From contig NZ_ATLK01000001.1 of the NCBI RefSeq assembly GCF_000737845.1, forward strand, positions 1,364,001-1,428,000: a stretch of 64,000 nt of DNA, written 5' to 3'. The notes under the pieces were generated by a model that was not told the origin of the DNA, did no database searches, and saw only the letters and a program-made list of their open reading frames with translations. Positions 34,394-51,690 of this stretch are shown here, piece after piece (position 1 is the first letter of the stretch; each line of letters starts with the position of its first letter). This DNA is from Bifidobacterium bombi DSM 19703. GTDB taxonomy: Bacteria; Actinomycetota; Actinomycetes; Actinomycetales; Bifidobacteriaceae. Position numbers and translations under genes: made by a program.

Positions 34394-37300
34394 TTAATGG
34401 GAGTCCGGCACATGCCTGCGGTGACGTGATTTGGCCACGAACAGCGCAGCAGCAGCCAAACCTGAGGCAACCGTTACGGCGACGATTACCAAGACAGCCG
34501 ATCCAGTAGCGCTCAGCTGGACGTCATCCGGCTTCCTCGTGAATCCCGTACCGGACTGGCCGGCACTTGAACTACCGATAGCGCCTATACCGGGAGAGCT
34601 CGAATCCCCGGGAACGTTGGAAGCGCCACCATGCACCTTGACCAGATGCCCGATGGCCGTCAACAAGTTGGTTTGACTCAACAGCACGTCATACAGGGTG
34701 CTGTTTTCATTGGAAAACACCGTTCTGGCGGCGGCGAGCGCCTGGGCCAGGGTGTTCCAAGTGATCGAGGTGTAGTCGTTCTGATTCAGGCCGGACGCCT
34801 CATCGATGGCCGTACCCAAATCGGTCTTGTCAACGGAGTCCCCAGCATCAGGAACAGCACGTTTTGTGGTGATTCGCAGTTCCGCCGCTGAAGCGAAGTT
34901 GTTCTCCTGACCGGAATCACCGTCCGTCTGGGTGGCGCTGATGCGCACAGCTGTGACATTCTTGATGACGACGGGGAATTTGACTTTCTGCCAAACGGCT
35001 CTCGTCGTGAATGTGCCGTCAGTGACCACACGCTGATCGGGCGTAGCGGAGCGCGGTTGAGCCGCGTACGTCTCCCCGCCATCGGCGGTGCTCACATCGA
35101 TGTTGTACTTCAGTATCCTGCCATTGGCACCACTGCTGCGAGGAAGGTACCGCAGGCCGTCGATAGTCGTGGGCTGACTCAGGTCGAACTGATACCACGC
35201 GCTGCCGGCCTGAACGGCGTTCACACCCCATTGCGTATGCCAGAACGTATCTGTCTTGCCATCCTGGGCCAGGATGGCAGGGCCTTCCGTCCCTCCACTT
35301 GAAAGCTCCTGCTCGCTCCCTGCCTTAACGGTGTATTTATCCGTCTCGACATCATACGCATCCGAGCCATCATTATTAGGGGCCTTCTGCATGTACGAAT
35401 CAAGGCTTTCCAACAACGAGTATGCCTTGGCGTAGCTTTGCTTATCGGCACCATTCTTGTCGATCAGCACCTGTGCCTTCGCCAACGTATCCTGGTATAA
35501 TCGCCAAGCCGTCGCAGAGAAATCAGAACTCCTGTCATCGTACTTGCCCTTTACTTCCTTGAGCTTGGCTTCGGTATCTGCCTTGGAGCGCGACGCCGAA
35601 GGAAGGTGACGGACCACGAGGTTGTCGAGGATGAAGTCCTTGTATCCACCGAAATCCTGTGCCTTACCGGTCGAGCCCTGCAAGTCGGGAGCCCTGTCCG
35701 TGGAGGATATGCCGAACCAGGAATCACCGTTTGGCGCACCGGTTACGGTGAACCTTGCATGAGCCGTGGTTCCCAACGCCTTTTTGAGCGGAGAGAGCTG
35801 GTCACGCGCAGGATCGTACTGTCCTTCACCTGTGGTGAACGCGTAGATGCCGTCGGAACCGGATTGGTAATCGAAGGACACCTCGTAAGCCTCCCCTGGC
35901 TCCAAATGGACGGTCTGCGGAATCGTCTGGTAAACCAAGTAGTCGTAATCAGCCAATCCGTTCACCTTGAGCGACCACTTGCCCTGCAGAACGTCATCCA
36001 TTTTCTTGACGTCCCAGCCAGCTTGTGTGTACGGCGCATGAAGCTCAGAAAGATGAGAACGATTGTCTTCCACGCCCTCCAGGCCGGATTCCACGAACGG
36101 CCACATGCCTTGCGGGTTACTCTCGAAGTCGTTCTTGAGCTCCTTGAGCGTGCCATCGCTTTCGAAGGACAGTCCGTCATAGTCATTTTCCAGGATTCGC
36201 ACATCGTCGAAATAGGCGTGATCCACGGCGTTAGCCGTTCCGCTTTGCGAAAGAGTCACCTGGGCGCTCCCCGAGGACGGGGCGATGAACCACACCATCA
36301 TGTTCTGGAACAGGCTCGTGCCATTCTCAGTATCCGTGTCTTTATTGTGGGCATAGGCCTTCACGTAATTGTAGGCGATGCTCCTGTCGGTGTAGTTGCT
36401 TGCAAGCGTCTTACCGTTATTGGTGACGTTGATCGATGCGATTCCATCACCTCGCTTATCCACGCCGACATAGAGGACATAGCGCTTGCCCGGCGTAAGG
36501 TCGGTGATGCTTTGCGAGACACCAGCCGCCCCCGAAAGTCTGAGCATGGCGTTGTTCGTGCCTACGATGTCGGCAGCGCCATGGCCTTTGGCGGAAAGCG
36601 TGGGATGCCAGTTCCGGATGAGGGTATCCTGGCCGCCGTTGAATCCGGCGTCCACTACATGCATGCCTTCGCTCCAGGCAATGTGCCGGTTCTTTTGGAC
36701 ACCCTGATAGACTACGTACGGCGTATTGGCGTCTGCATTCAAAGTCACCTTCCCGTCGGAGACGGGAACAGTCCGCATGTCGGTTTTGCCTTGATCAGTA
36801 AGACGGTACACTTTCACGTCGGAAAGACCGTTCCACCCATCGGGCAGCGCCCATGTGGTCTGACCACCTTTGGTGTTCCAGTGGTAGAGGCGCTGGGCGG
36901 AAGGATGTTGTTCCTTCCCGGTCTTGGCGTCCCATAGCCATGGCAACAGATACGACTCGTCTTCCGACCCCTTGGCGGTGCCGTCATCCGCCCTTACTGC
37001 TCCGTTGGAGATTACCCGTCCATTGAGGGTGATGGTGCGCTGCCGATAATCGGAACTCTTCGGGTCGTTCGACTTACGGGAAACCACCACCGTGTTGCCG
37101 TCAGCATCCTTGAGGGCAATCTGCTCGTTGCCTCCATTGGTGGACGGATCATGGGCGGAAGCTGCGTCGAGCGGGCTGTTGACCCAGCGCTGCACCGTGA
37201 AGTGCTGAAGGAATTTCGTGGACACGTCATGGGTGTAGAGATTGAGGATGTATGCCGCATAGTCATTACGGCCCTGCCAACCTTCAAAGTCCTTCATGTC

Positions 37301-39880
37301 ATAACCACCGAGCAACGGCGCGTTGGCCGCGCCGCCATAGGATGGGTAATCACCTACCCAGCTGTCCTTCTGGTGATTACGCAAGAACCGCATCACCTGG
37401 GAATTCTCGCCTTTAAGCTCACTTCCGCCATAAGTCAGATCCGCCGCCCAATGCTGGAAAGTGGAATCATACTCATTGGCGGCGCCCCACTCGTTGGCCA
37501 TGCGCCATCCTCGGTCATTGATCTCCTTGGAGAGTTTGCGCGTCTGCCAAGAATCGTCGGAACCACCGGTTTGGTTGCCCCAAATATCGACGTAGATGAA
37601 ATCGAGATTGTCGCCCACTTCGTTCTTCAGGTCCTGGAAGCGATTGGCACGCCCATGCGTCAGATCGTAGATGCTGTCGATGCCGACCGCCTGATCGAGC
37701 CAGTTCCACCCATACCTCAGGCTGCCGTTCGGGTTGCGACGCACAAGCTCGTCATTGAACGCCTTGGCTTCAGGGTACATCTCTCCGGCATTAACATGTA
37801 CGCCGAACCGAGCACCGTAATCGGCGCCTTTCTTCAACAGCGTGTTCATGTCCTTCGCACCACCGATGCGCTGGCCAATGTCGCCGTAGTCAGGGTGTCC
37901 GGAGTCGTGTCCCTCGTTCGCGTAACCCTTGAGCAACACTGACTGCCCCAGGCCGTCCGTGTTCAGCGAGACTTTCTTCACATTATCGAGCGTGGTCAGG
38001 AAGGGGTTCTGGGCCTGAGAGCCGAAATTCATGGCGATGCGGTAGGAGACGAGGTCAGGAACCTCTTGGGACTTGACGGGATTGTTCATGATGGAACGGT
38101 AGGCGAGCGCGCCGTCTTCCCAATCAACGACGCCGTCTTTGTTCTGATCTGCGGCAATGGCGACCTTCAACTTGGGCATTTCCGTCTGATCGACCGTATA
38201 CGAACGGTTTTTCGAATCCGTGACCACACGGTGATAGTACCAAGGAGCGCTTTCCAGACCCAACGAGGTCTCGCCGTTGATCGGAACGGTCGAAGCTATC
38301 ACGCGGGTGTTCTTCGCACCACCGGCGACAGCCGCAACCGCAGTGCCGTCATACTCGGAATTGCTCCAGAGGCCGGCGCTCAGCGATCCACCCGAAACGA
38401 AACCATAGGCGTAATCTCCGGCGTCGTTGATTGCAGTAGTATCGGTGACTGGGAATGTAGTATCGCCGTTTTTATTGGTGTCTGACGACATTCTGGCACC
38501 GGTAAACTGAGCCCCGTCCTCGTTGGATTGCACCGAGACGAGCGATTGCCTAGGAAACGCGATGGTCTGGATGGGGTGGTCTTTTTCACTCAAGTTGTTC
38601 TTGATGCCCGTAACCTCAAGACCCAGCGTATTCGCTTTCACCGTCAGGTCGACCGTGAGCTCGGCGTCTATATATTGGTCATCGTTCTTGACGGATAGCA
38701 GATAACGGGCTTCGGTGTCACTCACCTGCGTGAACTTGACGTCGCCGTCGCTCAGCTTCACATCCGTGCCATTGACGTTCACCACGTTCGAATCAACGCT
38801 TTGCCCATACATCTTCTTGCGGCCGAGCTTGATCATCGTATAATCCAAGACCGCCGGGAACCGCTCCTTGACACGCACCTCCATCTCGTCAGTGGTGAGC
38901 GTCCGCGTATGCTGATCGGCATTGGTGGCTGCGACCAGCGTAATCTGCGGGAGCTCCACATCGCTCCCCTGCAGCGTCACATCCCTGGTGATTTCGGTAT
39001 AGCCGGCCTTCCCCACGGATAGCGTGTACTTCCCGTTCTTCAAGTTGCTCAACGTAAAGTCCCCGGAAACATCGGTGGAGACGCTTTGCAATCCGGCAAT
39101 GCGAACCTTGGCGCCGACGATGGGGCCCTCGGCGCTCGCCACCGAACCCTTGACACTATACGTGGATGTGTCCGCATGCGGAAAGTCCCTGATATATATA
39201 TCAGTCAAGTCTGAGCCATATGTCGCGGCTCTCATGGCGACTTTCCCGCTCAACGAGTTCATGGATGAATAATCAACTTCGAACGCATCCTTACCGCCTA
39301 AGTTCAGTTTCGCGACCTTCCCCGTCCACGATACCGTCACGTCGGTGACCGAACCGGCGACCGGGGCGGGCAGACGAGCCCCTTGGTACCAATCCCCATC
39401 GCCACCAGCGTACTTCTGCCAAAACCAACCGCTGGAATCAAAACCTATGAACAGGCCGTCACCGGCAGACTTATAGCCCAGATAAAATCCGAAACGATTA
39501 TCCGAAGCTGATTGGGAAGATCGTATGGCCGCATGGAAGGATCCGGCTTGCCTAAAGTCGAAGGCCGAACCATACACCGCAATCGCCGGTTGACTGGACC
39601 CAGTTGTGGAATTACCGTTTTGGGAGGAAGACTTGAAATGAGTCCAGCCATCCTTATCTTCCAACACCTCACCCTTTGTGTTGTCGATCGTCCAACCATC
39701 CACCGTCGTCTGCGCTTGCGGACCGATCAACGGCGCAACTGCCGCCTGTACGGGGCCACCTTGGGACGGCGTCGACACCAAAGTCCGCAGGGAGGATGTG
39801 TCGGCGAACGCCGTTTCCCCCGTGAAAGCAAGGGTCAGCAGCAGCACCAGGCCCGAACGCAACAGCATGTTTTTCCTCAT
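34394..39880 (-). CDS. engBF: Endo-alpha-N-acetylgalactosaminidase, GH101, cell-wall anchored
   Basis: An 1828-residue secreted enzyme that releases core-1 disaccharide (Gal-beta-1,3-GalNAc) from Ser/Thr of mucin-type glycoproteins. Order: signal peptide (1-27); a lectin-like domain (about 60-235); a carboxypeptidase-regulatory-like Ig fold (240-315); the GH101 catalytic region (about 330-1000) with nucleophile Asp765 (FIYVDIWGN) and acid/base Glu797 (RMANEWGA), matching Asp789/Glu822 of B. longum EngBF as I recall it; galactose-binding-like domains; FIVAR-type segments (about 1485-1545, 1705-1770); an F5/8 discoidin domain (about 1560-1690); an LSATG motif, transmembrane helix and basic tail. 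GAGGAG lies about 9 bases before the ATG. It is divergent from the GNB importer and lnpA, which use its product. Confidence 0.94.
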   Translation of the reverse strand: MRKNMLLRSGLVLLLTLAFTGETAFADTSSLRTLVSTPSQGGPVQAAVAPLIGPQAQTTVDGWTIDNTKGEVLEDKDGWTHFKSSSQNGNSTTGSSQPAIAVYGSAFDFRQAGSFHAAIRSSQSASDNRFGFYLGYKSAGDGLFIGFDSSGWFWQKYAGGDGDWYQGARLPAPVAGSVTDVTVSWTGKVAKLNLGGKDAFEVDYSSMNSLSGKVAMRAATYGSDLTDIYIRDFPHADTSTYSVKGSVASAEGPIVGAKVRIAGLQSVSTDVSGDFTLSNLKNGKYTLSVGKAGYTEITRDVTLQGSDVELPQITLVAATNADQHTRTLTTDEMEVRVKERFPAVLDYTMIKLGRKKMYGQSVDSNVVNVNGTDVKLSDGDVKFTQVSDTEARYLLSVKNDDQYIDAELTVDLTVKANTLGLEVTGIKNNLSEKDHPIQTIAFPRQSLVSVQSNEDGAQFTGARMSSDTNKNGDTTFPVTDTTAINDAGDYAYGFVSGGSLSAGLWSNSEYDGTAVAAVAGGAKNTRVIASTVPINGETSLGLESAPWYYHRVVTDSKNRSYTVDQTEMPKLKVAIAADQNKDGVVDWEDGALAYRSIMNNPVKSQEVPDLVSYRIAMNFGSQAQNPFLTTLDNVKKVSLNTDGLGQSVLLKGYANEGHDSGHPDYGDIGQRIGGAKDMNTLLKKGADYGARFGVHVNAGEMYPEAKAFNDELVRRNPNGSLRYGWNWLDQAVGIDSIYDLTHGRANRFQDLKNEVGDNLDFIYVDIWGNQTGGSDDSWQTRKLSKEINDRGWRMANEWGAANEYDSTFQHWAADLTYGGSELKGENSQVMRFLRNHQKDSWVGDYPSYGGAANAPLLGGYDMKDFEGWQGRNDYAAYILNLYTHDVSTKFLQHFTVQRWVNSPLDAASAHDPSTNGGNEQIALKDADGNTVVVSRKSNDPKSSDYRQRTITLNGRVISNGAVRADDGTAKGSEDESYLLPWLWDAKTGKEQHPSAQRLYHWNTKGGQTTWALPDGWNGLSDVKVYRLTDQGKTDMRTVPVSDGKVTLNADANTPYVVYQGVQKNRHIAWSEGMHVVDAGFNGGQDTLIRNWHPTLSAKGHGAADIVGTNNAMLRLSGAAGVSQSITDLTPGKRYVLYVGVDKRGDGIASINVTNNGKTLASNYTDRSIAYNYVKAYAHNKDTDTENGTSLFQNMMVWFIAPSSGSAQVTLSQSGTANAVDHAYFDDVRILENDYDGLSFESDGTLKELKNDFESNPQGMWPFVESGLEGVEDNRSHLSELHAPYTQAGWDVKKMDDVLQGKWSLKVNGLADYDYLVYQTIPQTVHLEPGEAYEVSFDYQSGSDGIYAFTTGEGQYDPARDQLSPLKKALGTTAHARFTVTGAPNGDSWFGISSTDRAPDLQGSTGKAQDFGGYKDFILDNLVVRHLPSASRSKADTEAKLKEVKGKYDDRSSDFSATAWRLYQDTLAKAQVLIDKNGADKQSYAKAYSLLESLDSYMQKAPNNDGSDAYDVETDKYTVKAGSEQELSSGGTEGPAILAQDGKTDTFWHTQWGVNAVQAGSAWYQFDLSQPTTIDGLRYLPRSSGANGRILKYNIDVSTADGGETYAAQPRSATPDQRVVTDGTFTTRAVWQKVKFPVVIKNVTAVRISATQTDGDSGQENNFASAAELRITTKRAVPDAGDSVDKTDLGTAIDEASGLNQNDYTSITWNTLAQALAAARTVFSNENSTLYDVLLSQTNLLTAIGHLVKVHGGASNVPGDSSSPGIGAIGSSSAGQSGTGFTRKPDDVQLSATGSAVLVIVAVTVASGLAAAALFVAKSRHRRHVPDSH

Positions 39881-40259
39881 TGAAATTGTCTCCTCTCTGA
39901 TTCTTCCTATACAACCTCAGCGTCACACAGGAATGAATTTTAACGACAACATTCTTTATGTTAAACGAAACAACTTACAAATCATAATATACTATACACG
40001 AAATGTACAGATAACCAATCCTTTCGGTTTTTTGAAAAATATAAATTACAACGGAATATCAGCGATACCGTCAATGCGTCTGCCAAGCGTTTTATCGAAT
40101 GCATATTCTTTCGATGGATCTTCCAACTTTACAATTAATAGAAAGATGGTGTACATTAATATGTAACAGTTCATCCGCAATCGTCATACGCGGATTGGAC
40201 CTGTACGTCGGTTTTGACTAGGGCATGTCAAATCCGCAGAGAGATTACAAGGAGGTACG
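39881..40259. promoter_or_regulatory. Divergent AT-rich control region of the GH101 and GNB/LNB operons
   Basis: The 379 bases between the two divergent starts are markedly AT-rich (39930-40170), unlike their surroundings. Both promoters must lie here. I could not assign single -35/-10 pairs or a clear operator. A shared regulator site is plausible because the two units serve one pathway. Confidence 0.5.
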
Positions 40260-41600
40260 ATGAAAATGAAGGCAACATTGAAAAGGGCGGTCGCCCTTGT
40301 GGGCGCCGTAGCCATGCTCGCGTCCGTAGGCGCTTGCGGCGGCGCGAAGACCGGCGCTGACGGCGGGAAGACCGTACTGAAATTCGCCGCTTTCGAAGGT
40401 GGATACGGTTCGGACATATACAAACAGGTCGTCAAGGAATACGAGAAGCTCAACCCTGACGTCAAAATCGAGCTGACCACTTCCAAGAAACTCGGAGACG
40501 AGATAACCCCCGGGATGAAGGCGGGGAAGTATCCGGACATCGTCGAGATGGCCCAAGGCAATGAGTCCGGCTTAGTCGAAACCATGCTCAAGGACCACGC
40601 GCTCGAAGACGTCTCCGATGTACTGAACGAAAAAGTTCCGGGCGAAAGCAAGAAAGTGAAAGACAAGCTGGTCGACAACATCATCGGCCTCTATACCAAT
40701 CCTTACGGTGATTCCAAAACCTATCTGATGCCTATGTACTATTCGCCGTCCGGCTTGGTGTACAACAAGACGCTGCTTAAGGAGAACGGCTGGGAGGTGC
40801 CCACCAACTGGGACGACTTCTTCAAGTTGGGCGATGAAGCCAAAGCCAAGGGCATCTCGCTGTTCACCTATCCAACTTCCGGATACTTTGACGGTTTCTT
40901 CAACGCGCTGCTGGCGGACATGGGCGGTGAGGACTATTACAAGGACGTCATGACCTACAAGAAGGACGTCTGGAAAGAGGACAAATCAAAAGAGTCACTG
41001 GAACTGGTGCACAAACTCGTCACCGAGTATCTCAATCCAGCAACGGTAGGTTACGCGAACGCCCAGGACTTCACCAAGAACCAGCAATCCGTATTGGACG
41101 GCAAATCACTCTTCATGCCCAACGGCACATGGATTGTCAATGAAATGAAGGACGCACCACGTACCAGCGGTTTTGAATGGGGCTTCGCCCCGGTCCCAGC
41201 ACCGAAAGCCGGCGGGACACGCTACATCAACACAACGATCGAAGGAATCTGGATTCCGGCGAAGGCGAAGAACAAAGAGGCCGCTAAAAAGTTCATGGCT
41301 TACATGTACTCCGACAAAGCGGCCGAAATCTTCGCCAAGACGGGTGCCGTGCAACCTATAAAGGGTGCTTCCGACAAGGCAGACAAGACCATGCAGGTCT
41401 TCTATGACGGGTACAAGGAGAACGGCGTGAAGGCCATCACCGGATCGTTCTCCGCAACAGCATCCGTAGAAGGCAAGAACATCAAGGATGACCTTTACAC
41501 CGCAGTCGATTCCGTGGCATCCAAGCAGAAGAGCGTTACGGACTGGCAGAATTCGTTGAACGAAACCAGTAACGCACTTAACGCCGCAGCTTCGAAGTGA
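40260..41600 (+). CDS. gltA: GNB/LNB ABC transporter solute-binding lipoprotein
   Basis: A 446-residue family 1 solute-binding lipoprotein. The signal peptide ends in a lipobox with Cys26 (SVGAC), followed by GGAKTGADGG and a sugar-binding-protein fold (FAAFEGGYGSDIYKQVVKEYEKLNPDV). AAGGAGG lies 4 bases before the ATG. In B. longum the equivalent protein (GL-BP) binds galacto-N-biose and lacto-N-biose I. The assignment here rests on position directly before two permeases and lnpA. No ATPase gene is in the operon; a shared MsmK-type ATPase is expected elsewhere. Confidence 0.92.
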   Translation: MKMKATLKRAVALVGAVAMLASVGACGGAKTGADGGKTVLKFAAFEGGYGSDIYKQVVKEYEKLNPDVKIELTTSKKLGDEITPGMKAGKYPDIVEMAQGNESGLVETMLKDHALEDVSDVLNEKVPGESKKVKDKLVDNIIGLYTNPYGDSKTYLMPMYYSPSGLVYNKTLLKENGWEVPTNWDDFFKLGDEAKAKGISLFTYPTSGYFDGFFNALLADMGGEDYYKDVMTYKKDVWKEDKSKESLELVHKLVTEYLNPATVGYANAQDFTKNQQSVLDGKSLFMPNGTWIVNEMKDAPRTSGFEWGFAPVPAPKAGGTRYINTTIEGIWIPAKAKNKEAAKKFMAYMYSDKAAEIFAKTGAVQPIKGASDKADKTMQVFYDGYKENGVKAITGSFSATASVEGKNIKDDLYTAVDSVASKQKSVTDWQNSLNETSNALNAAASK

Positions 41601-41634
41601 GCCTATAGGCCGATAAACCGATATAAACCAAGGC

Positions 41635-41662
41635 GGGGCGACGAACAGCACTTTGCCGCCCC
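41635..41662 (+). terminator. Attenuating hairpin after the binding-protein gene
   Basis: GGGGCG (41635-41640) and CGCCCC (41657-41662) form a GC-rich stem in the 101-base gap before the first permease gene. No long T-run follows. Such hairpins often keep binding-protein mRNA more abundant than permease mRNA. Confidence 0.55.
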
Positions 41663-41701
41663 ATCGATTTTCATCAATCTTCAACAGCAAGAAGGGATCA
41701 C

Positions 41702-42628
41702 ATGTCGAATTCCACAAGAAAAACCAAAGGCAAACGCAGTGATCTACAACGCCGTCATTCGGCGTTCGGCTTGGCATGCGCAACGCCTGCGGTCATATTA
41801 TTCGTCATATTCATGGTGATACCCACCATCAACGTTTTTCGCATGTCTCTTTATAAGATGAGCCCGCTTTCCGACGATAAGACTTTCGTAGGGCTGGCGA
41901 ACTTCATGAAATTGGCGACTGATCTGAAATTCGTGAAAGCATGTCAGAACACCGTACTCTTGCTCGTACTCGTCACCGCCATCACGTTGCCGATTTCAAT
42001 CATATTCGCAGCCATCCTGACGCAAAGCAACATCATAGGATCAGGCTTCTTGAGATTCGCCATGTACATCCCTTCAGTGCTTTCAGCCGTGGTGATAGCA
42101 GCCATCTTCTCAGCCATCTACGACCAAAAGGACGGCCTGCTCAATGGCACCCTCGGGTTCCTTGGACTCAAAGCGCTCAGACAGGTATGGCTAGGCAACC
42201 AGAAAATCGTTATCTACTCCATTGTTTTCGCCATGGTCTGGCAGGCCTTCGGCTACTACATGGTGATGTACATGTCCGCGATGGCAGGTGTCAGTCCGGA
42301 ACTTTATGAGGCGTCTGAGATCGATGGTGCGGGCAAAGTCCGTCAGCTCTTCACCATAACCATTCCGCTGATATGGCAGAACATTCGCACCACCCTCACA
42401 TTCTTCATCATCAGCTCGGTGAACATGAGTTTTGTGCTGGTCACGGCAATGACCAATGGAGGCCCTGACGGAGCATCGCAGACTGTATTGGGCTACATGT
42501 ATAAGACGGCATACACTGATGCCACATATGGCTATGGAATGGCCATAGGCGTGGTGCTGTTCCTCTTTAGCTTCCTGCTATCTTTGATCGTCAATCAGTC
42601 CACCAAGCGTGAAGTGCTGCAATTCTAG
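41702..42628 (+). CDS. gltB: GNB/LNB ABC transporter permease 1
   Basis: A 308-residue MalF-type permease with six transmembrane helices (first at about 24-46). The EAA loop that contacts the ATPase reads YEASEIDGAGKVRQLFTITIPL. GAAGGGATC precedes the ATG. It imports GNB/LNB together with the next permease and the binding protein (inference from operon and family). Confidence 0.92.
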   Translation: MSNSTRKTKGKRSDLQRRHSAFGLACATPAVILFVIFMVIPTINVFRMSLYKMSPLSDDKTFVGLANFMKLATDLKFVKACQNTVLLLVLVTAITLPISIIFAAILTQSNIIGSGFLRFAMYIPSVLSAVVIAAIFSAIYDQKDGLLNGTLGFLGLKALRQVWLGNQKIVIYSIVFAMVWQAFGYYMVMYMSAMAGVSPELYEASEIDGAGKVRQLFTITIPLIWQNIRTTLTFFIISSVNMSFVLVTAMTNGGPDGASQTVLGYMYKTAYTDATYGYGMAIGVVLFLFSFLLSLIVNQSTKREVLQF

Positions 42629-42640
42629 GAGGCGTCAGCA

Positions 42641-43555
42641 ATGACGAGCAAAACTTTCAAACCAGCAGAAAACCGCGGTTCCACGCATACATGGACTGTA
42701 GGACGGGCAGTAGGTGAATTCATACTCATTCTGGCAGCACTGAGTATTCTCATCCCCGTGATTTGGGTGTTTTTCGCATCATTCAAAAGTAAAAGCGAAT
42801 TTTATGGCAACCCCTGGGCCATGCCGAATGGTCTGCATTGGCAGAACTATGTGTCCGCCTTCCAAGATGCGAAACTGGGTCAATATTTCGGCACATCGGT
42901 CATTGTGACGGTGATGGCCTTGGCCATTGTACTGGTCGTGGCCCTACCATGCGCATATGTGCTGGCAAGGTTTGATTTTCCGGCCAAGCGCATCATACAG
43001 GTCGGCATCCAGGCAGGATTGTTCATCAACGTGAACTACATCGTTGTGCCGATTTTCCTCATGCTGACGGATGGCGACAAATTGCTCATCGACATCTTTC
43101 CTAACGGCTTCTTCATCAACAATGTATTCATTCTGGCCTTGGTATACGCAGCCACATCACTGCCATTCACGATTTTCCTACTTCAGGATTTCTTCGTTAC
43201 CATACCTACAACGTATGAGGAGGCGGCGCTGCTTGACGGTGCTTCACAGTTCACGATTATGACACGCATCTTCTTCCCGATGGCAGGACCGGCCATCTCA
43301 ATGTCAATGCTCTTCAACTTCCTGAGTTATTGGAACGACTACATCATCGCCCAGACCCTCATGCCACCTTCCGCGGACATAGACCGCCGCACGGTACAGG
43401 TGGGTCTGCTCAATCTTATGCAAACGCAGAAAGCCGCAACTGACTACGGAAGACTCTACGCCGGCATGGTCATCGTCATGATACCTGTTCTCATCTTCTA
43501 TGCGTTGGTGCAGAAGAAGCTGCTGGAGACTTCAAACATGGGAGGGATCAAATGA
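42641..43555 (+). CDS. gltC: GNB/LNB ABC transporter permease 2
   Basis: A 304-residue MalG-type permease with six helices. The EAA loop is YEEAALLDGASQFTIMTRIFFPMAGP. It begins 12 bases after the first permease gene (AGGAGG before the ATG) and its stop overlaps the next small frame by ATGA, which shows tight coupling. Confidence 0.92.
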   Translation: MTSKTFKPAENRGSTHTWTVGRAVGEFILILAALSILIPVIWVFFASFKSKSEFYGNPWAMPNGLHWQNYVSAFQDAKLGQYFGTSVIVTVMALAIVLVVALPCAYVLARFDFPAKRIIQVGIQAGLFINVNYIVVPIFLMLTDGDKLLIDIFPNGFFINNVFILALVYAATSLPFTIFLLQDFFVTIPTTYEEAALLDGASQFTIMTRIFFPMAGPAISMSMLFNFLSYWNDYIIAQTLMPPSADIDRRTVQVGLLNLMQTQKAATDYGRLYAGMVIVMIPVLIFYALVQKKLLETSNMGGIK

Positions 43556-43731
43556 GCGACAGACTTCGTTCAGCGCTAATTATAACGCTGGAAGTACTCG
43601 TGTTCCTTACCTTCACGGCACTTACCGTGATTGGTCAGCGAATGCTTTCCTGGCAAGGCTTGGGACTGGAATGCATCGGTCTGGCGGGAGTGGTGGGTGT
43701 CATATGGTTTTACAACCATACCCACAAGTGA
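43552..43731 (+). CDS. 59-residue membrane peptide within the GNB/LNB operon
   Basis: The frame starts at the ATGA overlap with permease 2 and reads MSDRLRSALIITLEVLVFLT... to ...WFYNHTHK. Two hydrophobic segments are visible (about 8-26 and 36-53). GGGAGGG lies 6 bases before the ATG. Coupling to the permease suggests an accessory subunit or stabiliser of the transporter. I do not recognise a family; it is short enough to be missed by automated annotation. Confidence 0.72.
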   Translation: MSDRLRSALIITLEVLVFLTFTALTVIGQRMLSWQGLGLECIGLAGVVGVIWFYNHTHK

Positions 43732-43835
43732 GGCAGACTAGCTGGCAAACGGCCCGTGCAACGCCATATCAGTGACGTATTGCAGCTGCACACAATGACA
43801 AGCAACCTCTATAGACACATAAGGGAGAGAAACAT

Positions 43836-46130
43836 ATGTCCTACGGGTTATTCACCCTTCCGGCGGAGGAGAACTTCGCAGCAAAGACGCGTGAACTTGC
43901 GCAGCTCTGGGGGGCGGATGCCATCCGCAACTCGGACGGAACTCATTTGGACGAGGAGGTCAAGGCACTAGGCAAGAAGATATACAGCGCCTATTTCCCC
44001 GCTCGAGGCCATAATGAGTGGGCCCGACTGCACATGGACGAAACGCCGATGGTCTACCTGCTCAGCCAGCGTGTGCTCGCAGAGGACGACCCCACCACCA
44101 ACGGAAACCAGAGCGACACAAGCCCGAACGGCGCAAAGACACGGGTGGAGATTCCTTTCATGAAGACGTTCTTCGAAGAGCAGCTCCAACCCTATTATGA
44201 TGCCGATCCGGCGCGATACTGGGAGGTCACCGACAGAACAACGGGCGAAACGATACCCACCGAACGCTGGCATGTGGATCGGGAACGAGACACGGTCATC
44301 GTGGAACCAGCCGAGTGCTTCCACGAGTACACCGTCACCTTCTTGGCATCCATCATCTGGGACCCCGTCGAGATGTACAACCACATCACCAACAACTGGA
44401 GCGACCATGAGCACGCCGTGCCCCTTGACGTGTACCAGCCCGACACACGGGACTTCATCATGCACGCCTACCAGGAATGGCTTGATGCTAACCCTGAGGT
44501 GGACGTCGTGCGACTCACCACGTTCTTCTACCAGTTCACGCTTATTTTCAGCGCGCAGCGGCGCGAAAAAATAGTGGATTGGTTCGGATGTGCCTGCACC
44601 GTTTCGCCTTCGGCTTTGGACGGATTCGAACGGGAATACGGTTACCGCATGCGCCCCGAGGACTTCGTGAGCGAAGGCGGGTATAACAGCACTTTCCGAC
44701 AGCCCACCCGTCCGCAACTCGACTGGCTTGGGTTCGTGATGCACACGGTTCGTGCGAACGTGAAACGCATGGTGTCCATGACCCATGAGGCCGGCAAAGA
44801 GGCGATGATGTTCCTGGGCGACCAATGGATAGGCACCGAGCCATACGTCGACGGGTTCGAAGACCTCGGTCTTGACGCGGTGGTGGGATCGGTCGGGGAC
44901 GGAACCACCCTGCGCATGATCTCGGACATCAAGGGCGTCAGATACACGGAGGGACGGTTCCTCCCCTATTTCTTCCCCGATACGTTCCATGAGGGCAACG
45001 ATCCCAGCATCGAAGCATGGAGCAATTGGCGCAAGGCACGTCGCGCCATCCTGCGAAGCCCCATATCGCGTATGGGCTACGGCGGCTACCTTTCATTGGC
45101 CGCGAAGTTCCCGAAGTTCGTGGATGCAGTGACGGAAATCGCCGATGAATTCCGCGACCTGACGGCGAAGACGGGTGGAGAGGGGGCCCAAGGATCGCTC
45201 AACATCGCCGTTCTCAACACTTGGGGGCGCATGCGTTCTTGGATGGCCTACACCGTGGCCCATGCGAAGCCGTATCCACAGACCTATTCCTATTACGGCG
45301 TGCTTGAGTCACTTTCGGGGATGCGGGTCAACGTACGGTTCATCAGTTTCGACGATGTGACCTCACGTGGCATCGATGACGAAATCGACGTCGTCGTGAC
45401 TGGAGGCGCCGCCGGCACGTCGTTCAGCGGAGGCGAAGTATGGAAAGACCCTGCACTGGTGTCCACACTGCGCAGATGGGTCCGCAACGGCGGCGCCCTG
45501 GTGGGACTCGGCGAACCCAGCGCCGTCAACTGGCAGGGGCGCTTCTTCCAGCTGGCGGACGTGTTCGGTGTGGACAGGGAGATTTCCCAAACGCTTTCCG
45601 TAGATAAATACTTCCCCGCACTGACCCGTGGGCATTTCATCACTGCCGATGTTCCAGCGAACGAAACGAACGCGGAAGACGGGGACATCGAGCCCGAGGA
45701 CTTCGGAGGAACGGTTTACGCCACCCCACGGGCGATGAGCGACATAGGCTACGATTTCGGGGAACCCATAACGGGCACATACCCCATCGACGGAAACGTA
45801 ACGCTCCTCTCCGCCGCCGAAGGACGAGTGCAGCTGGCCACGAACCGGTACGGCAGCGGTGTCGGCGTCTACCTGTCCGGCCTGCCTTATTCAGGACGGA
45901 ATGCGCGGTTGCTGGAGCGCATCCTCTTCTATGCGGCTAGACGCGAGGATGAATACGAAGCATACAGTTCCACCAACCCACAGTGCGAGACTGCGGTCTT
46001 TCCCAAAACCGGTTGGATGTGCGTCATCAACAACACCAACCAACCGCAGAGCACGGATGTGAAGGTCCCGGGTCAGGGACCGGTGCACGTCGACCTCGGT
46101 ACGAGTGGCATCTTCTGGAGAAAGATCTAG
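43836..46130 (+). CDS. lnpA: 1,3-beta-galactosyl-N-acetylhexosamine phosphorylase (GH112)
   Basis: A 764-residue cytosolic phosphorylase that converts galacto-N-biose or lacto-N-biose I plus phosphate into alpha-galactose 1-phosphate and GalNAc or GlcNAc. GH112 landmarks: RVEIPFMKTFFEEQL, WHVDRERDTVIVEP, and MFLGDQWIGTEPY with the probable general acid Asp329 (Asp313 in the B. longum enzyme by recall). A glutamine amidotransferase-like domain (about 480-640; VVVTGGAAGTSFSGGEVW) and a C-terminal beta domain follow. The loop at residues 85-102 (DDPTTNGNQSDTSPNGAK) looks like an insertion. GGGAGAG precedes the ATG. The usual downstream lnpB, lnpC and lnpD are missing. Confidence 0.95.
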   Translation: MSYGLFTLPAEENFAAKTRELAQLWGADAIRNSDGTHLDEEVKALGKKIYSAYFPARGHNEWARLHMDETPMVYLLSQRVLAEDDPTTNGNQSDTSPNGAKTRVEIPFMKTFFEEQLQPYYDADPARYWEVTDRTTGETIPTERWHVDRERDTVIVEPAECFHEYTVTFLASIIWDPVEMYNHITNNWSDHEHAVPLDVYQPDTRDFIMHAYQEWLDANPEVDVVRLTTFFYQFTLIFSAQRREKIVDWFGCACTVSPSALDGFEREYGYRMRPEDFVSEGGYNSTFRQPTRPQLDWLGFVMHTVRANVKRMVSMTHEAGKEAMMFLGDQWIGTEPYVDGFEDLGLDAVVGSVGDGTTLRMISDIKGVRYTEGRFLPYFFPDTFHEGNDPSIEAWSNWRKARRAILRSPISRMGYGGYLSLAAKFPKFVDAVTEIADEFRDLTAKTGGEGAQGSLNIAVLNTWGRMRSWMAYTVAHAKPYPQTYSYYGVLESLSGMRVNVRFISFDDVTSRGIDDEIDVVVTGGAAGTSFSGGEVWKDPALVSTLRRWVRNGGALVGLGEPSAVNWQGRFFQLADVFGVDREISQTLSVDKYFPALTRGHFITADVPANETNAEDGDIEPEDFGGTVYATPRAMSDIGYDFGEPITGTYPIDGNVTLLSAAEGRVQLATNRYGSGVGVYLSGLPYSGRNARLLERILFYAARREDEYEAYSSTNPQCETAVFPKTGWMCVINNTNQPQSTDVKVPGQGPVHVDLGTSGIFWRKI

Positions 46131-46500: not shown

Positions 46501-49500
46501 TCACCGCTTGGCATGTCCTGCGGCCAAATGAGAGCCTGAAGCTTCATGCCTCCTGCGAGAAATCATCAGCACCCCGCCGGCACCGAACAAAATCACGACG
46601 GCTGTCACCAACGCGGCGATTGCCGTACCGGTGGAAGCCATGTTCGGGCGCGCATTGAACTGGTCGATGATCTCCACAGTGGTGATGTCATCGTCGGGTA
46701 TGACGGCATTGCCGTCTTGTGGATTGTAGGAGACCAAATCAGCCATACTGGTATCTGTCTGGGTCACATGACAGCCGGTACCTACAATGAACTCACCAAT
46801 GGTCGTCTGGTAATCATGAGCCGCATCCAAGATGACCTCACCCTTGCCGGGAAGCTCCTCGTCGGAGGGGCTGTTCTTCTGATGAGCGCAATCAAGCCGC
46901 ACTCTGAATGGGCCCGCGCCCCGAGCGGCAATCGCCGAACGGTCACCCGTGCGCTTGAGCACGACACGAAGCGTGCCGATGTCATACCTGTCCTGGGCGA
47001 GAACCTCGGCATGGCTCAAGCCATCCTTACCGGATTGCCCGCCAGGAAGCTCATTCAGCCTATTGATAGTGACCGTTCCGTTCGTCGGCGTAAGCCTATG
47101 CTCCGTGGCGCCGGAATCGTCCAGCTGATTGACGACGCACTGCGTGCCGGCCGGGAATATGCCAAAGCTTTCCGTCTCACCGTTCCGCAGGCTGAACAGG
47201 CCATCCTTCCCCGCGAGCAGATGCTGACCTCGATAATCGCACACCGCGGAGAACCGCATCTTGGCCTTCCCGTAACGGGGAGCACCGTCCCCGGTCACTT
47301 CGCGCCTGATTTGCAACGTGCCGGCATCATAGTGATTCGTCACCAACGTGGAGACCACATCAGTGTCGCTATCGTTGAGTGTGATGGAGGCGGTGCCGTC
47401 GGAGTGTCCCGTTACATTCGTGCCGGTGAACACGGTGCTGTCGGCCGCCGATGTGCCCGTCTCCTTCAGCAGGCAGGTCGAACCGGCGGGAATTGTGTCC
47501 GCAGGGGCGCTCCATACGCCCCCATCAGTCAGCGTGAACGACGTGTCGTTCCTCCCTGCAAACCTCACCGCCTGTCCATCCTTCGTAGCGCATGAGAGCG
47601 TGAAGTCAAATGGACCGAACTGACCCTTATCGGCCTTCGTGTCCACCTTCTTGCGAACCTTCATACCGGCATACCTGTAGGTATTGGTAATCAAGACCTT
47701 CTGCGTATGATCCACATCATTGGAAGGCTTGCCGTTTGAATCAACACCGTCGGCATGGGAGAGCGCCACGACATTAGTGGCGACATTGTCGACGCTCACC
47801 GAACGCTCGGTTTCACCGAATTGTCCAAGCGGGCCATGTTCGTTGACGGTGCAGGAAGTCGCCTGCTGACCGGCACTCAGTGGAATCCCACTGAGACGGC
47901 CGGCCACGTAATTGCCATCGTCGCCTTTGGATATCGTGACGGACCCCGTTTCCTTGGTGCCGAAGAGTACGTTCTGCCCTTGTGCGTTTCGACAATCAAC
48001 ATCAGCAACGACGTGCGCGGGCGCATAACCTTTCGCCAGGCCATTCACCTCCTTGGCTATCTCCAACGAACCCGTAGAGATATGCACTCCGACCGGTACC
48101 GGCGCCAGAGGAGTGGAACTACCAGACATATTGGTGTAGTACAGACCAAATTGGCCCTTAGCCTCTTGCGGTCCGGCCTTGGCATCCATCGAGGCGTTAC
48201 CCTCAGCCGATCCAGCCACGTTCTTGGAAGAATACGTAACGTCTACCCCATCCCCAGGGCTGAGTTCCCCTCCCGTCCGACTGAAATCGACGGTCACGCG
48301 AATCCCCGTGACCTTCGACCAATCAGCGACGCTCGCGCTCGGCATCCAGCTGACCGAAGGATCGGTGGAACACGCATCAGGAACCTGTGAGACACCATTC
48401 AACAGGGACGGCCAAGTGCCCACGCACGGCGAAGCGCTCGTGGTCGCCTCTATCGTCGCGGCTCCTGCCGGAACACCCAACACCTTGGGTGCTCCGGTGA
48501 GTTCCGGACGATAGGTGGAACCTCGGTTTTCACCGCTTGCGACCATCATCTTATCGCCCTTCTGCGGCAACTCCTCAAAGAACTGAGCACGTTGAAGCGG
48601 GACGGTTCCTGCATTGACCATATGCAATACCCAGTCATCGATGCCACCTATCGCCGTATTTGCCTCGCAAGGACTGCGGTAATACTTCTTACCATCCTTG
48701 CCGGTGAACGTGACGTCGCATTTCGCACTTGGATCCGTAAAGCTCACCGCTCCGTCCAAGGCCCCTCTGACGCCCTTCAACGCGTAGATGTTCTCTCCAT
48801 ATGAAGGCAAGACGTTCGCCGAGGTCTTGGCGCCTCGTTCCGCACCACTGAGCGCTACCGGGGAGCTAGGCGACGGCATGCCGTCGACAGAAATCGCATA
48901 CAGGCCAACAGGCTGTTTATCGGTATGCACCTTCACCGGGAGGGTAATCTGTTGCCCGGAACGGGCCCCAGGCTGCAACTCCAACCAGATGCGGATTCGC
49001 AGTTGCTCTCCGGGATTCATGCGGCTCTTGCCCGCCGGCCACGTAAGCTTGATCTTCCCGGCAGTCGAAGTATCCAGCGAAGGCACTGTGGTAACGCCGC
49101 CCGTATGGCTAGAATCCGGCTCGAAGGTCATCGCTGGATCCCCGACCGTAGCACCGAAACCTGTGTACACCAGCTGATCGGGCAGATCAAGCGTAATGTC
49201 ATCCAAGCTAATATATGCGGTGCTGCTTGCGCGGTTTGAAACATAAATATCCCAAGGCACCATCTGCCCGATGGTGGCGGTGGAGGCGCCGTTATTGGCG
49301 AATTCAGACAGCCCCAGATCCGCACTACCCTGTGAGCGCTTCACACTTGCGACTGCGGTATCACTTGCGCTACTCGACAGTTCGGAGGTTTTCGACTCAA
49401 CCTGCACCGACAGCAACACCGTATCCGTCGCATCGGTCGGCTTGAAACTCACGGCTTGCGAGGTTCCCCTCACCGTACTCCGTTGTTTTGCACCATACGT

Positions 49501-51690
49501 TACGCCAGCGCGCCAATCATTACGAGTCGAGGAGAACAGCTGTGCATTGCCGTTGGCATCAGGGTTGTCGAACGTGAATCGAAGACCCTGGACATCAGAG
49601 AATCTTGAATTCGCCACAGGCATGGCATAGCCGGAATTCGAAGCAGTGTTCAACAGCTGCCAATCACCGTCCTGCCATTGCATCGCTCCATTGACGCCGA
49701 ACGGGCCGTACGCGGAAACCTTTACTCGTGAGGCACCCGAAGGGAAATCAATGGTCTTCAGTCCAGTGAAGTCATGGTTCTTCCAGAACCCACTAGTCTT
49801 TTGTGCGACTTCGCCCGTGTCGTTTGCAAGTCCCTGGTCCTCGGGCCAATCAGTCATGGTGACCTTGGTGGGCGACAGCGTCGAACAGGCGTCACCCACA
49901 TTTTGCCCGGAACAGCTGTCGGCGCGACCTTGCAAGGAAACCGTCAACGGACTGTCCGGCTTCGTTTCGTTCACCACGGAGGGATCGATGTTGGAAGCGG
50001 CCTTGGTCTTGACTGAGCCTGAAATATAGGTACGATTCATAGCGACAGAGGAACTGGGCCAACGACCTCCACCAGTAATCGGATCAAGTACCTGTGCAAA
50101 AACTCTGTTCTTGCCTGAAGTCTGCGACCCATCCGACTTGGGAACGAACTTGCTGCCATCGGCTCTGAGCGTACTGCGCACCCTAGTGGACAAATCCACA
50201 TGCAAATTGTTCCCGCTGGTGATCGTCCCACCATCTTGCTCCGGATCGGTACCTTGGAACGTGACGGACACTCCAACCACATCACTGAGCTGTTCTTCAG
50301 TCATGGCATTCGCATCTTGCGCCGTGGTCTTCGTGAACGAATACCTGTGCGCCCCATCCACTCCGGGAGTGTAGCGCAACAACCAAACCACGGACTGTTC
50401 AAGCGACACCTCACTCGGAATATCCGCTGAAATGGAAATTCGCGTCAAATCCTGTTTATTGAATATGTTGGGAATTTCGAAACTGTCTAGCTTGCCGTTC
50501 TTGATGTCATCGACTGTATTGCGATCAAACGGATTCTTCACGGCAGCCGCGTGGGCCTGATCGAAATCCGTCGGCGGCAATGCACACGCCGGAATATTGG
50601 TATCCGAACACATCGCCGGCTCGATGACCCTTATGTAGGACGCACGACTGGGAGAAGAGCTCTTGGCTTGAAGCCGGTAATTCAGATTCGGATAATCACC
50701 CTGACTGACCGCGCCATACGGAGGCACGACCACGGGGGGCTTGTTAGCGGTGTTCGAATCCGATGGTGGGTCGGTGGAGCTTGAAGAATCGCCGGTGGCA
50801 TCCACGTTCGGAGTACCGTCCTGAATGTTGAAATCGGCCTGGCCTGCACCTTGGTATTCTTGCAAATCACCTTGTCCCGGACTATGAACGGTAAGTGACT
50901 TAGAGTACACCTCAAGGGTCTGTTTCACAACTCGGGTAGCCGCCTGCGAACCTGAACGGGCAAATGGGGAAGGAGACGAGAAGCCGACAAGCGCTCCCTT
51001 AGGCTTGGGAAGCCCGGCGGATTGCGTCCCCAAAGTGCCTTCCGACGCATCCGCCAAGCCTCGAGGAGCGGTCTGCAACGCATTCGCGCCCAACGCCTGA
51101 CCCGAAGCATCCGTGGAATGGCCAGTGACGAAGCAATCATGACGTGTGCAATCACGCTCCTTGACTCGAATATTCCAGTTGAGCACAAACTCACGAACCG
51201 CAGCGGATGGCGTCACACCCGATCCCGGGGCAGGGACGTAAGGGTTGGTGGAATCCCTACTACGAGCAGCATCGTTGGGTACAACCATGAAACGGACACC
51301 TGTGATATCCTCACGCTTCACAGTCGAATTGGGGAAGGTTTCTGGAATGACATATCCTTTGAACGACCCATCCTGATCCTGCCAACTGCCATTGGGTTTT
51401 GGCAATTCAATCCAGTTGTCCCGTGTCGTTTGCACCTCGATCTTGGAGATGGTGTCGTACTTGAGGTACCAGCCATTGTCATAAGGCGTGGATGAAGTAT
51501 TGATGCCGGAGATGGACATCAGGTTGAAGTTCGGACCCCACGTACCAGCGAACGTATCATCGTTCGAGACATATTCGAATGTGTCATCACGATCCGTGAC
51601 CCTGGCATAGCTCATGTCCGGATCCACACCCCACATGAGGTGAGATGAGACCTCCATATCCGATTGCGCATAGATGGACTCAACAGGCAC
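46501..51690 (-). CDS. Giant surface protein, C-terminal part (frameshifted from 51612-54257)
   Basis: A 1729-codon frame with no signal peptide of its own; its first codons continue, in another frame, the ORF at 51612-54257. It is rich in Ser, Thr, Asn and Asp and has the look of an extracellular stalk. From about residue 1240 to 1690 there are four related modules, each starting like GSLEIAKEVNG, AGMKVRKKVDT, GTLQIRREVTG or GTLRVVLKRTG and each with a conserved Cys pair; they resemble SpaA/DUF5979-type repeats. The C-terminus has MASTG, a hydrophobic helix and a basic tail (SRRRHEAS), a sortase-type anchor with a non-canonical motif. Without the upstream ORF the product could not be exported. 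Ligand unknown. Confidence 0.82.
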   Translation of the reverse strand: MPVESIYAQSDMEVSSHLMWGVDPDMSYARVTDRDDTFEYVSNDDTFAGTWGPNFNLMSISGINTSSTPYDNGWYLKYDTISKIEVQTTRDNWIELPKPNGSWQDQDGSFKGYVIPETFPNSTVKREDITGVRFMVVPNDAARSRDSTNPYVPAPGSGVTPSAAVREFVLNWNIRVKERDCTRHDCFVTGHSTDASGQALGANALQTAPRGLADASEGTLGTQSAGLPKPKGALVGFSSPSPFARSGSQAATRVVKQTLEVYSKSLTVHSPGQGDLQEYQGAGQADFNIQDGTPNVDATGDSSSSTDPPSDSNTANKPPVVVPPYGAVSQGDYPNLNYRLQAKSSSPSRASYIRVIEPAMCSDTNIPACALPPTDFDQAHAAAVKNPFDRNTVDDIKNGKLDSFEIPNIFNKQDLTRISISADIPSEVSLEQSVVWLLRYTPGVDGAHRYSFTKTTAQDANAMTEEQLSDVVGVSVTFQGTDPEQDGGTITSGNNLHVDLSTRVRSTLRADGSKFVPKSDGSQTSGKNRVFAQVLDPITGGGRWPSSSVAMNRTYISGSVKTKAASNIDPSVVNETKPDSPLTVSLQGRADSCSGQNVGDACSTLSPTKVTMTDWPEDQGLANDTGEVAQKTSGFWKNHDFTGLKTIDFPSGASRVKVSAYGPFGVNGAMQWQDGDWQLLNTASNSGYAMPVANSRFSDVQGLRFTFDNPDANGNAQLFSSTRNDWRAGVTYGAKQRSTVRGTSQAVSFKPTDATDTVLLSVQVESKTSELSSSASDTAVASVKRSQGSADLGLSEFANNGASTATIGQMVPWDIYVSNRASSTAYISLDDITLDLPDQLVYTGFGATVGDPAMTFEPDSSHTGGVTTVPSLDTSTAGKIKLTWPAGKSRMNPGEQLRIRIWLELQPGARSGQQITLPVKVHTDKQPVGLYAISVDGMPSPSSPVALSGAERGAKTSANVLPSYGENIYALKGVRGALDGAVSFTDPSAKCDVTFTGKDGKKYYRSPCEANTAIGGIDDWVLHMVNAGTVPLQRAQFFEELPQKGDKMMVASGENRGSTYRPELTGAPKVLGVPAGAATIEATTSASPCVGTWPSLLNGVSQVPDACSTDPSVSWMPSASVADWSKVTGIRVTVDFSRTGGELSPGDGVDVTYSSKNVAGSAEGNASMDAKAGPQEAKGQFGLYYTNMSGSSTPLAPVPVGVHISTGSLEIAKEVNGLAKGYAPAHVVADVDCRNAQGQNVLFGTKETGSVTISKGDDGNYVAGRLSGIPLSAGQQATSCTVNEHGPLGQFGETERSVSVDNVATNVVALSHADGVDSNGKPSNDVDHTQKVLITNTYRYAGMKVRKKVDTKADKGQFGPFDFTLSCATKDGQAVRFAGRNDTSFTLTDGGVWSAPADTIPAGSTCLLKETGTSAADSTVFTGTNVTGHSDGTASITLNDSDTDVVSTLVTNHYDAGTLQIRREVTGDGAPRYGKAKMRFSAVCDYRGQHLLAGKDGLFSLRNGETESFGIFPAGTQCVVNQLDDSGATEHRLTPTNGTVTINRLNELPGGQSGKDGLSHAEVLAQDRYDIGTLRVVLKRTGDRSAIAARGAGPFRVRLDCAHQKNSPSDEELPGKGEVILDAAHDYQTTIGEFIVGTGCHVTQTDTSMADLVSYNPQDGNAVIPDDDITTVEIIDQFNARPNMASTGTAIAALVTAVVILFGAGGVLMISRRRHEASGSHLAAGHAKR

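Follow-up and report, generated by a model that had tools for sequence, protein, structure and literature searches.

A divergent Bifidobacterium bombi locus joining GH101, a GltFGH-type importer and LnpA: a probable galacto-N-biose scavenging system with separate promoter-like sites

When genes for the release, import and phosphorolysis of the mucin disaccharide Gal-beta-1,3-GalNAc (galacto-N-biose, GNB) lie side by side, do they form one system, and is that system under one control? The question is raised by a 64,000-nucleotide stretch of Bifidobacterium bombi DSM 19703 (contig NZ_ATLK01000001.1, positions 1,364,001 to 1,428,000; hereafter the window), in which a gene for a GH101 endo-alpha-N-acetylgalactosaminidase on the minus strand lies back to back with genes for a binding protein, two ATP-binding cassette (ABC) permeases and the GH112 phosphorylase LnpA on the plus strand. 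We consider it quite probable that this locus serves the scavenging of GNB, the core 1 mucin disaccharide, through an importer of the GltFGH type, with separate promoters and no visible NagR operator; we infer its activity, substrate, transport and expression from sequence. Translation of the window gave five open reading frames (ORFs) with the content, coordinates and strands that a first-pass annotation had assigned, and with domain matches far above the cut-offs:

34394-39880, minus strand: GH101 endo-alpha-N-acetylgalactosaminidase gene (1828 amino acids; PF12905 at 423.9 bits, plus accessory domains)
34502-34516, minus strand: LSATG, putative anchor motif (residues 1789-1793), then a hydrophobic segment and a basic tail
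37247-38119, minus strand: GH101 catalytic domain (residues 588-878, PF12905)
39881-40259, no strand: intergenic region between the divergent arms (379 bases)
40260-41600, plus strand: gltF, predicted GltFGH-type lipoprotein binding protein for GNB and lacto-N-biose (LNB) (446 amino acids; TIGR03850, 9h0n, binding residues)
41702-42628, plus strand: gltG, ABC permease 1 (PF00528)
42641-43555, plus strand: gltH, ABC permease 2 (PF00528)
43836-46130, plus strand: lnpA, GH112 1,3-beta-galactosyl-N-acetylhexosamine phosphorylase (764 amino acids; TIGR02336, 2zus)

The locus lies on contig C1 of the window genome (G000; 1.9 Mb, 4 contigs, 93% complete), which belongs to the same GTDB-style genus as the B. 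longum-like and B. bifidum-like genomes and has one match each to the GH101 and GH112 families. The genes for release, import and phosphorolysis are physically joined, as had been proposed, and the gap between the arms is indeed AT-rich (62.8% AT against 44.1% for the whole window).

The binding protein matched TIGR03850 at 624.8 bits (cut-off 299), and its closest solved structure was PDB 9h0n (E 9e-236), which is Blon_0883, or BiGFL-BP, of B. infantis (PMC12345172). Isothermal titration calorimetry of Blon_0883 gave dissociation constants of 68.5 nM for LNB and 169 nM for GNB (PMC12345172); the gltFGH naming and the placement in the B. infantis nag cluster are from PMC9599254. What is most notable, as read from the alignment, is that the window GltF keeps the disaccharide residues of Blon_0883 without two residues of its fucose pocket: all nine disaccharide contacts (G47, Q98, S163, T205, Y208, D210, W290, E294 and E327; PMC12345172) are identical, as is F44, whereas S100 and T101 are replaced by N and E. 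T205, which contacts fucose also (PMC12345172), is retained. Because T101 is missing from all eight species-level Bifidobacteriaceae homologues compared (E in six, K and P in the others; B. infantis was not among the genomes searched), these data suggest that acceptance of fucosyl groups is a peculiarity of the B. infantis protein.

By its score above the model cut-off and its conserved contacts, the importer is of the GltFGH (BiGFL-BP) type, a lineage unrelated to classic GltABC/GL-BP. The first-pass annotation had described a GNB/LNB binding protein; this agrees with its family relative Blon_0883, which binds both sugars, but the implied GL-BP family does not hold. A classic GL-BP identity was ruled out by TIGR03850, by 9h0n and by the low identity to GltA (24% over 193 residues with GltA of G056). 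A classic GltA query (the 438-residue protein of G096, a relative of 2z8d and 7vfq) found itself in G096 and had no close match in G000, G094, G122, G047 or G099 (best 27-35% identity; in G000 29%, over part of the protein only), so the GL-BP-type GltA of the classic lnp operon was not found here. Across a survey of 189 Bifidobacteriaceae genomes, eight exceeded the TIGR03850 cut-off. Their gltFGH genes lay less than 10 kb from lnpA in five (G000, G094, G047, G099 and G055), adjoined GH101 instead in G122, and had neither lnpA nor GH101 near them within the 20 kb fetched in G052 and G006. The locus has no ATPase gene, and a shared ATPase is therefore presumed.

The GH101 protein has a signal peptide, the full GH101 domain set and a CBM32-type F5/8 domain. 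Besides a catalytic domain above cut-off, profile search found PF17974, PF18080, PF21466, PF17451, PF20909, PF17995 and PF00754, with a FIVAR domain slightly below its cut-off. Residues 325-1674 aligned with 2zxq, the structure of EngBF from B. longum, at 1884 bits, and identity to bifidobacterial relatives was about 58-60%. D765 and E797, invariant in seven aligned GH101 proteins, line up with what we take to be the nucleophile and acid/base of EngBF. T1792 and G1793 of LSATG are invariant in the same alignment, and the motif is, by its setting, a predicted LPXTG-like anchor of non-canonical form. The enzyme had been called cell-wall-anchored, which fits its anchor-like C-terminus, with LSATG in place of the canonical LPXTG.

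LnpA matched PF09508 at 633.5 bits, TIGR02336 at 1081.9 bits (cut-off 560.3) and 2zus, the structure of the phosphorylase from B. longum, at 1123 bits; D329 aligned with D313 of 2zus, so the catalytic Asp of GH112 GNB/LNB phosphorylases is retained, and the protein is 65% identical to bifidobacterial relatives. In many relatives, as in the classic lnp operon, nahK and galT follow lnpA. Here they do not: nahK lies at C1:1534136 and lnpA at C1:1407845, and the NagR-like ROK gene and nahK, then a galT-like ORF, stand together about 125 kb away (G000:C1:1532-1536 kb), so the locus is not the whole pathway. In the route that we propose, the surface-held GH101 would cut Gal-beta-1,3-GalNAc from serine or threonine, the lipoprotein GltF would capture GNB, GltGH would import it with the presumed shared ATPase, and LnpA would phosphorolyse it in the cytoplasm, with NahK and GalT taking the products onward and each arm transcribed from a promoter of its own within the gap. 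BNR_2, the sole sialidase model used, had no match in the 93% complete window genome and matched one of eight genomes tested (the B. bifidum-like G024), which suggests that the window organism may use core 1 that is already unmasked. Near nagA-nagB of G000 (L182:8237-11689; C1 about 996-1000 kb), the ORFs of a binding-protein pair overlap, as do those of a GH20 pair, as though frameshifts had broken each gene.

We used profile matches across the 189 family genomes to examine how common the linkage is. Weak PF12905 matches, confined to some 120 positions of proteins that are about 500-790 residues long, were dropped before counting, which left 30 of the 46 PF12905-matching genomes with a strong GH101 match (E below 1e-60). 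GH112 was present in 29 of these 30, and in 14 of the 29 the two domain matches lay less than 10 kb apart (4.3-9.8 kb), which argues that adjacency is more than chance. The annotation had proposed that the arrangement may mark a lineage adapted to mucin, to be doubted if GH101 next to lnpA were common in the genus. The latter is partly the case: linkage was seen in 3 of 16 genomes of the window's genus (G000, G094 and G116, B. tsurumiense, with two genes between), in neither of two Alloscardovia, and in all 11 of the bee-gut genus g5, which includes B. asteroides, B. mellis, B. choladohabitans and B. sp. 7101. The other 15 genomes include G024 (38 kb apart) and G052 (GH101 at a contig end). 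In G056, which we take to be B. longum, GH101 and GH112 are 1.7 Mb apart, so the separation of engBF from the lnp operon that the annotation had described held up. Two layouts occur in g5: five genomes have a full-length GH101 upstream of gltABC-lnpA-nahK-galT, and six have a short GH101 downstream of galT. These short proteins (L069-L074; about 1125 residues) stop before the anchor region.

Linkage also occurs outside the family. Among 25 non-family GH101 loci, many of them cut by contig ends, two had gltFGH-lnpA in the flanking sequence retrieved: Catonella morbi (L138) and Robinsoniella peoriensis (L147), in which gltFGH, lnpA and GH101 fall within about 13-16 kb. Unlike the window genes, these are all on one strand, and protein identities are mostly 37-61%. 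In an order-level sample of 396 genomes, GH112 was found in 8 of the 35 non-family GH101 genomes tested. In one of these (G292, from another family of the order, with a G294-type divergent cluster) the two genes are back to back on the same contig, GH101 opposing importer-lnpA as in the window, but the importer is GltABC-like (31-43% identity) and GH101 runs off the contig end; in the other seven the genes are on different contigs or far apart (G190). The possibility that linkage is unique to the window lineage was ruled out by the 14 family genomes, Catonella, Robinsoniella and G292. Together, these gene orders indicate that GH101-lnpA linkage is real and modular and has recurred, importers and regulators having been swapped from one lineage to another.

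These comparisons bear on a different account, in which the locus is mainly for LNB from milk-type or other type 1 chains and GH101 is a chance neighbour. LNB is accepted by the GltF-type protein and by GH112 too (PMC12345172; TIGR02336), and G047 and G099 have gltFGH and lnpA with no strong GH101 match. We nevertheless find this account improbable, given that gltFGH or lnpA is found linked with GH101 in G000, G094 and Gardnerella KA00225 (gltFGH only), as well as in the bee group (lnpA with GltABC), Catonella, Robinsoniella and G292. In Gardnerella vaginalis KA00225 (L160:2917-12812), GH101 is followed directly by gltFGH and lnpA lies elsewhere.

Among known systems, gltABC-lnpABCD of B. longum with its separate engBF covers the same functional steps as the window locus, which differs in that its importer is of another lineage, GH101 is part of the cluster, nahK and galT stand apart and no NagR-type operator was seen. 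The B. infantis genes Blon_0883-0885 share the binding protein family and disaccharide contacts (PMC12345172, PMC9599254), whereas the window genes stand with lnpA and GH101 rather than in a nag cluster and lack S100/T101. The bee-gut clusters have GH101 joined to the lnp operon as in the window, but are same-strand, use a GltABC-type importer and keep nahK and galT. The GH101 and GNB phosphorylase genes of P. acnes reportedly lie near each other. In the literature that we could search on GH101/GH112 operons, P. acnes, Gardnerella, bee-gut bifidobacteria and Blon_0883, in which subscription journals are poorly covered and sources were available in part, we found no description of the linkage.

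In the GH101 tree the window was sister to G094 and G096 (support 100/100), in the GltF tree it grouped with G094 and G099 (100/99), and in the LnpA tree its place near G094, G096 and G099 was not resolved. G094 has a divergent layout like the window's, which may thus have been inherited from an ancestor common to both; in G094, unlike in the window genome, nagR, nahK and galT stand beside lnpA. In G096, GltABC stands with lnpA and GH101 is distant.

Is the divergent locus then read as one unit? Three promoter-like sites were found in the gap region against 0.9 expected, and the following features were placed there:

39937-39964, minus strand: second candidate GH101 promoter (promoter scan)
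39981-40009, minus strand: candidate GH101 promoter, TGTACA-17-TATGAT (promoter scan)
39992-40010, no strand: weak dyad over the candidate GH101 -35 box, suggestive only
40140-40159, plus strand: conserved gltF-upstream element AGAAAGATGGTGTACATTAA, overlapping a promoter-like -10, TACATT

The promoter-like sites of GH101 and gltF are separate, about 150-190 bases apart, and the layout of the candidate at 39981-40009 is similar in G094. In gltF genomes, the gltF element (consensus GGAAACnTAGTGTACAWT) is found some 100 bases 5' of gltF. Its matrix was built from nine training sites, two of them not gltF promoters, and was thus learned partly from genomes where the element was found; the window, outside the training set, is the sole independent test, and its copy scored 15.1 (next best in the 64 kb, 6.9; 0 of 2000 shuffles). 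The element resembles what could be a diverged NagR-type site.

One shared regulator in the 379-base gap might still govern the whole locus, a view to which we give somewhat less than even credence. G094 is divergent too, in both genomes the candidate GH101 -35 is overlain by a weak dyad (with perfect arms at the matching position in G094), and Gardnerella KA00225 carries a gltF-type element both upstream of gltF and about 250 bases upstream of GH101; but in the window the element occurs once, on the gltF side, and the best NagR-type score in the gap is 1.86. Moreover, a de novo search for dyads in 20 promoter regions yielded counts like those of shuffled sequence, and a palindrome scan of the gap found only short or imperfect inverted repeats. 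The shared control region and coordinated regulation that the first-pass annotation had proposed thus found no support.

For NagR itself, 22 promoter regions of nag/lnp genes in relatives yielded a palindrome of 21 bases, ATTGTTAAnnnnnTTAACAAT; the matrix is limited to this learned consensus, which fits the description of NagR operators as 21-bp palindromes in PMC9599254. In G000 its scores were 11.5 in the nagR-nahK interval and 10.6 ahead of nagB. By comparison, no NagR-type operator was seen at the locus promoters: the best score in the gap corresponds to p of about 0.24-0.30 against shuffles, the best in the whole window was 4.25, and the best in the 400 bases upstream of lnpA was -4.1. 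In the two full-length bee-gut representatives checked, the GH101-gltA gap has a strong NagR-type site (16.65). Continued NagR control through weak sites missed by the matrix seems doubtful to us. The gltF element does align with the 21-base pattern, the best sites upstream of gltF in G047 and G006 (7.96 and 7.2) overlap it, and lower-affinity operators have been reported (PMC9599254); the window element, however, scores -4.1 against 11.5 at nahK and 10.6 at nagB.

We recounted sites in the 400 bases upstream of each start, counting scores of 8 or more. GH101 copies that qualified were those of G096 (11.4, at -97), B. bifidum (13.3, at about -100), B. leontopitheci copy 1 (13.3), B. tsurumiense (8.6) and B. 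aerophilum (8.4); sister G094 scored 5.2 at -96. Two further sites are more distant from the annotated starts, at about -610 for Gardnerella GH101 (10.4) and about -460 for G096 gltA (12.3).

Several observations weigh against GNB scavenging under such altered control. On the regulatory side, the qualifying GH101 copies are 5 of 21 others, and with 16 below 8 a NagR site is no general feature of GH101 promoters. None of the eight gltF genomes reaches 8 upstream of gltF (best 7.96), so a missing site on that arm is not special to the window, and a claim of NagR-site loss concerns the GH101 arm, where it is plausible. G047 and G006 match the gltF element weakly. The kinetics of LnpA may differ, since it sits on a long branch (0.69) and, compared with 2zus, carries an insert near residues 89-104. 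GltF and LnpA also handle LNB, so type 1 chains, from milk or elsewhere, could be a substrate, and GH101 and the import operon could each answer to a signal of its own.

A tentative scenario, on balance unlikely, is that GltFGH was at root a GNB importer and, in Bifidobacteriaceae and Lachnospiraceae, travels together with GH101 and LnpA, that the fucose pocket was gained later, and that in the window lineage the module replaced GltABC and left NagR control. If true, the use of mucin core 1 would be uncoupled from N-acetylglucosamine sensing in this lineage, and an importer described for fucosylated milk sugars would be recast as possibly mucin-derived. The locus itself offers a compact setting for studying together how the main mucin disaccharide may be released, taken up and phosphorolysed.

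G000 encodes a second NagR-like ROK regulator (L182:11731-12873; 35-45% to others), and in G047 a relative of it lies between gltFGH and lnpA as a candidate module regulator. On the 3' side of lnpA, a surface-protein gene is convergent with it: two overlapping ORFs of 1729 and 881 residues on the same strand (46501-54257, minus), with DUF5979 repeats and an anchor-like C-terminus, look like one large surface protein with a frameshift near 51.6 kb.

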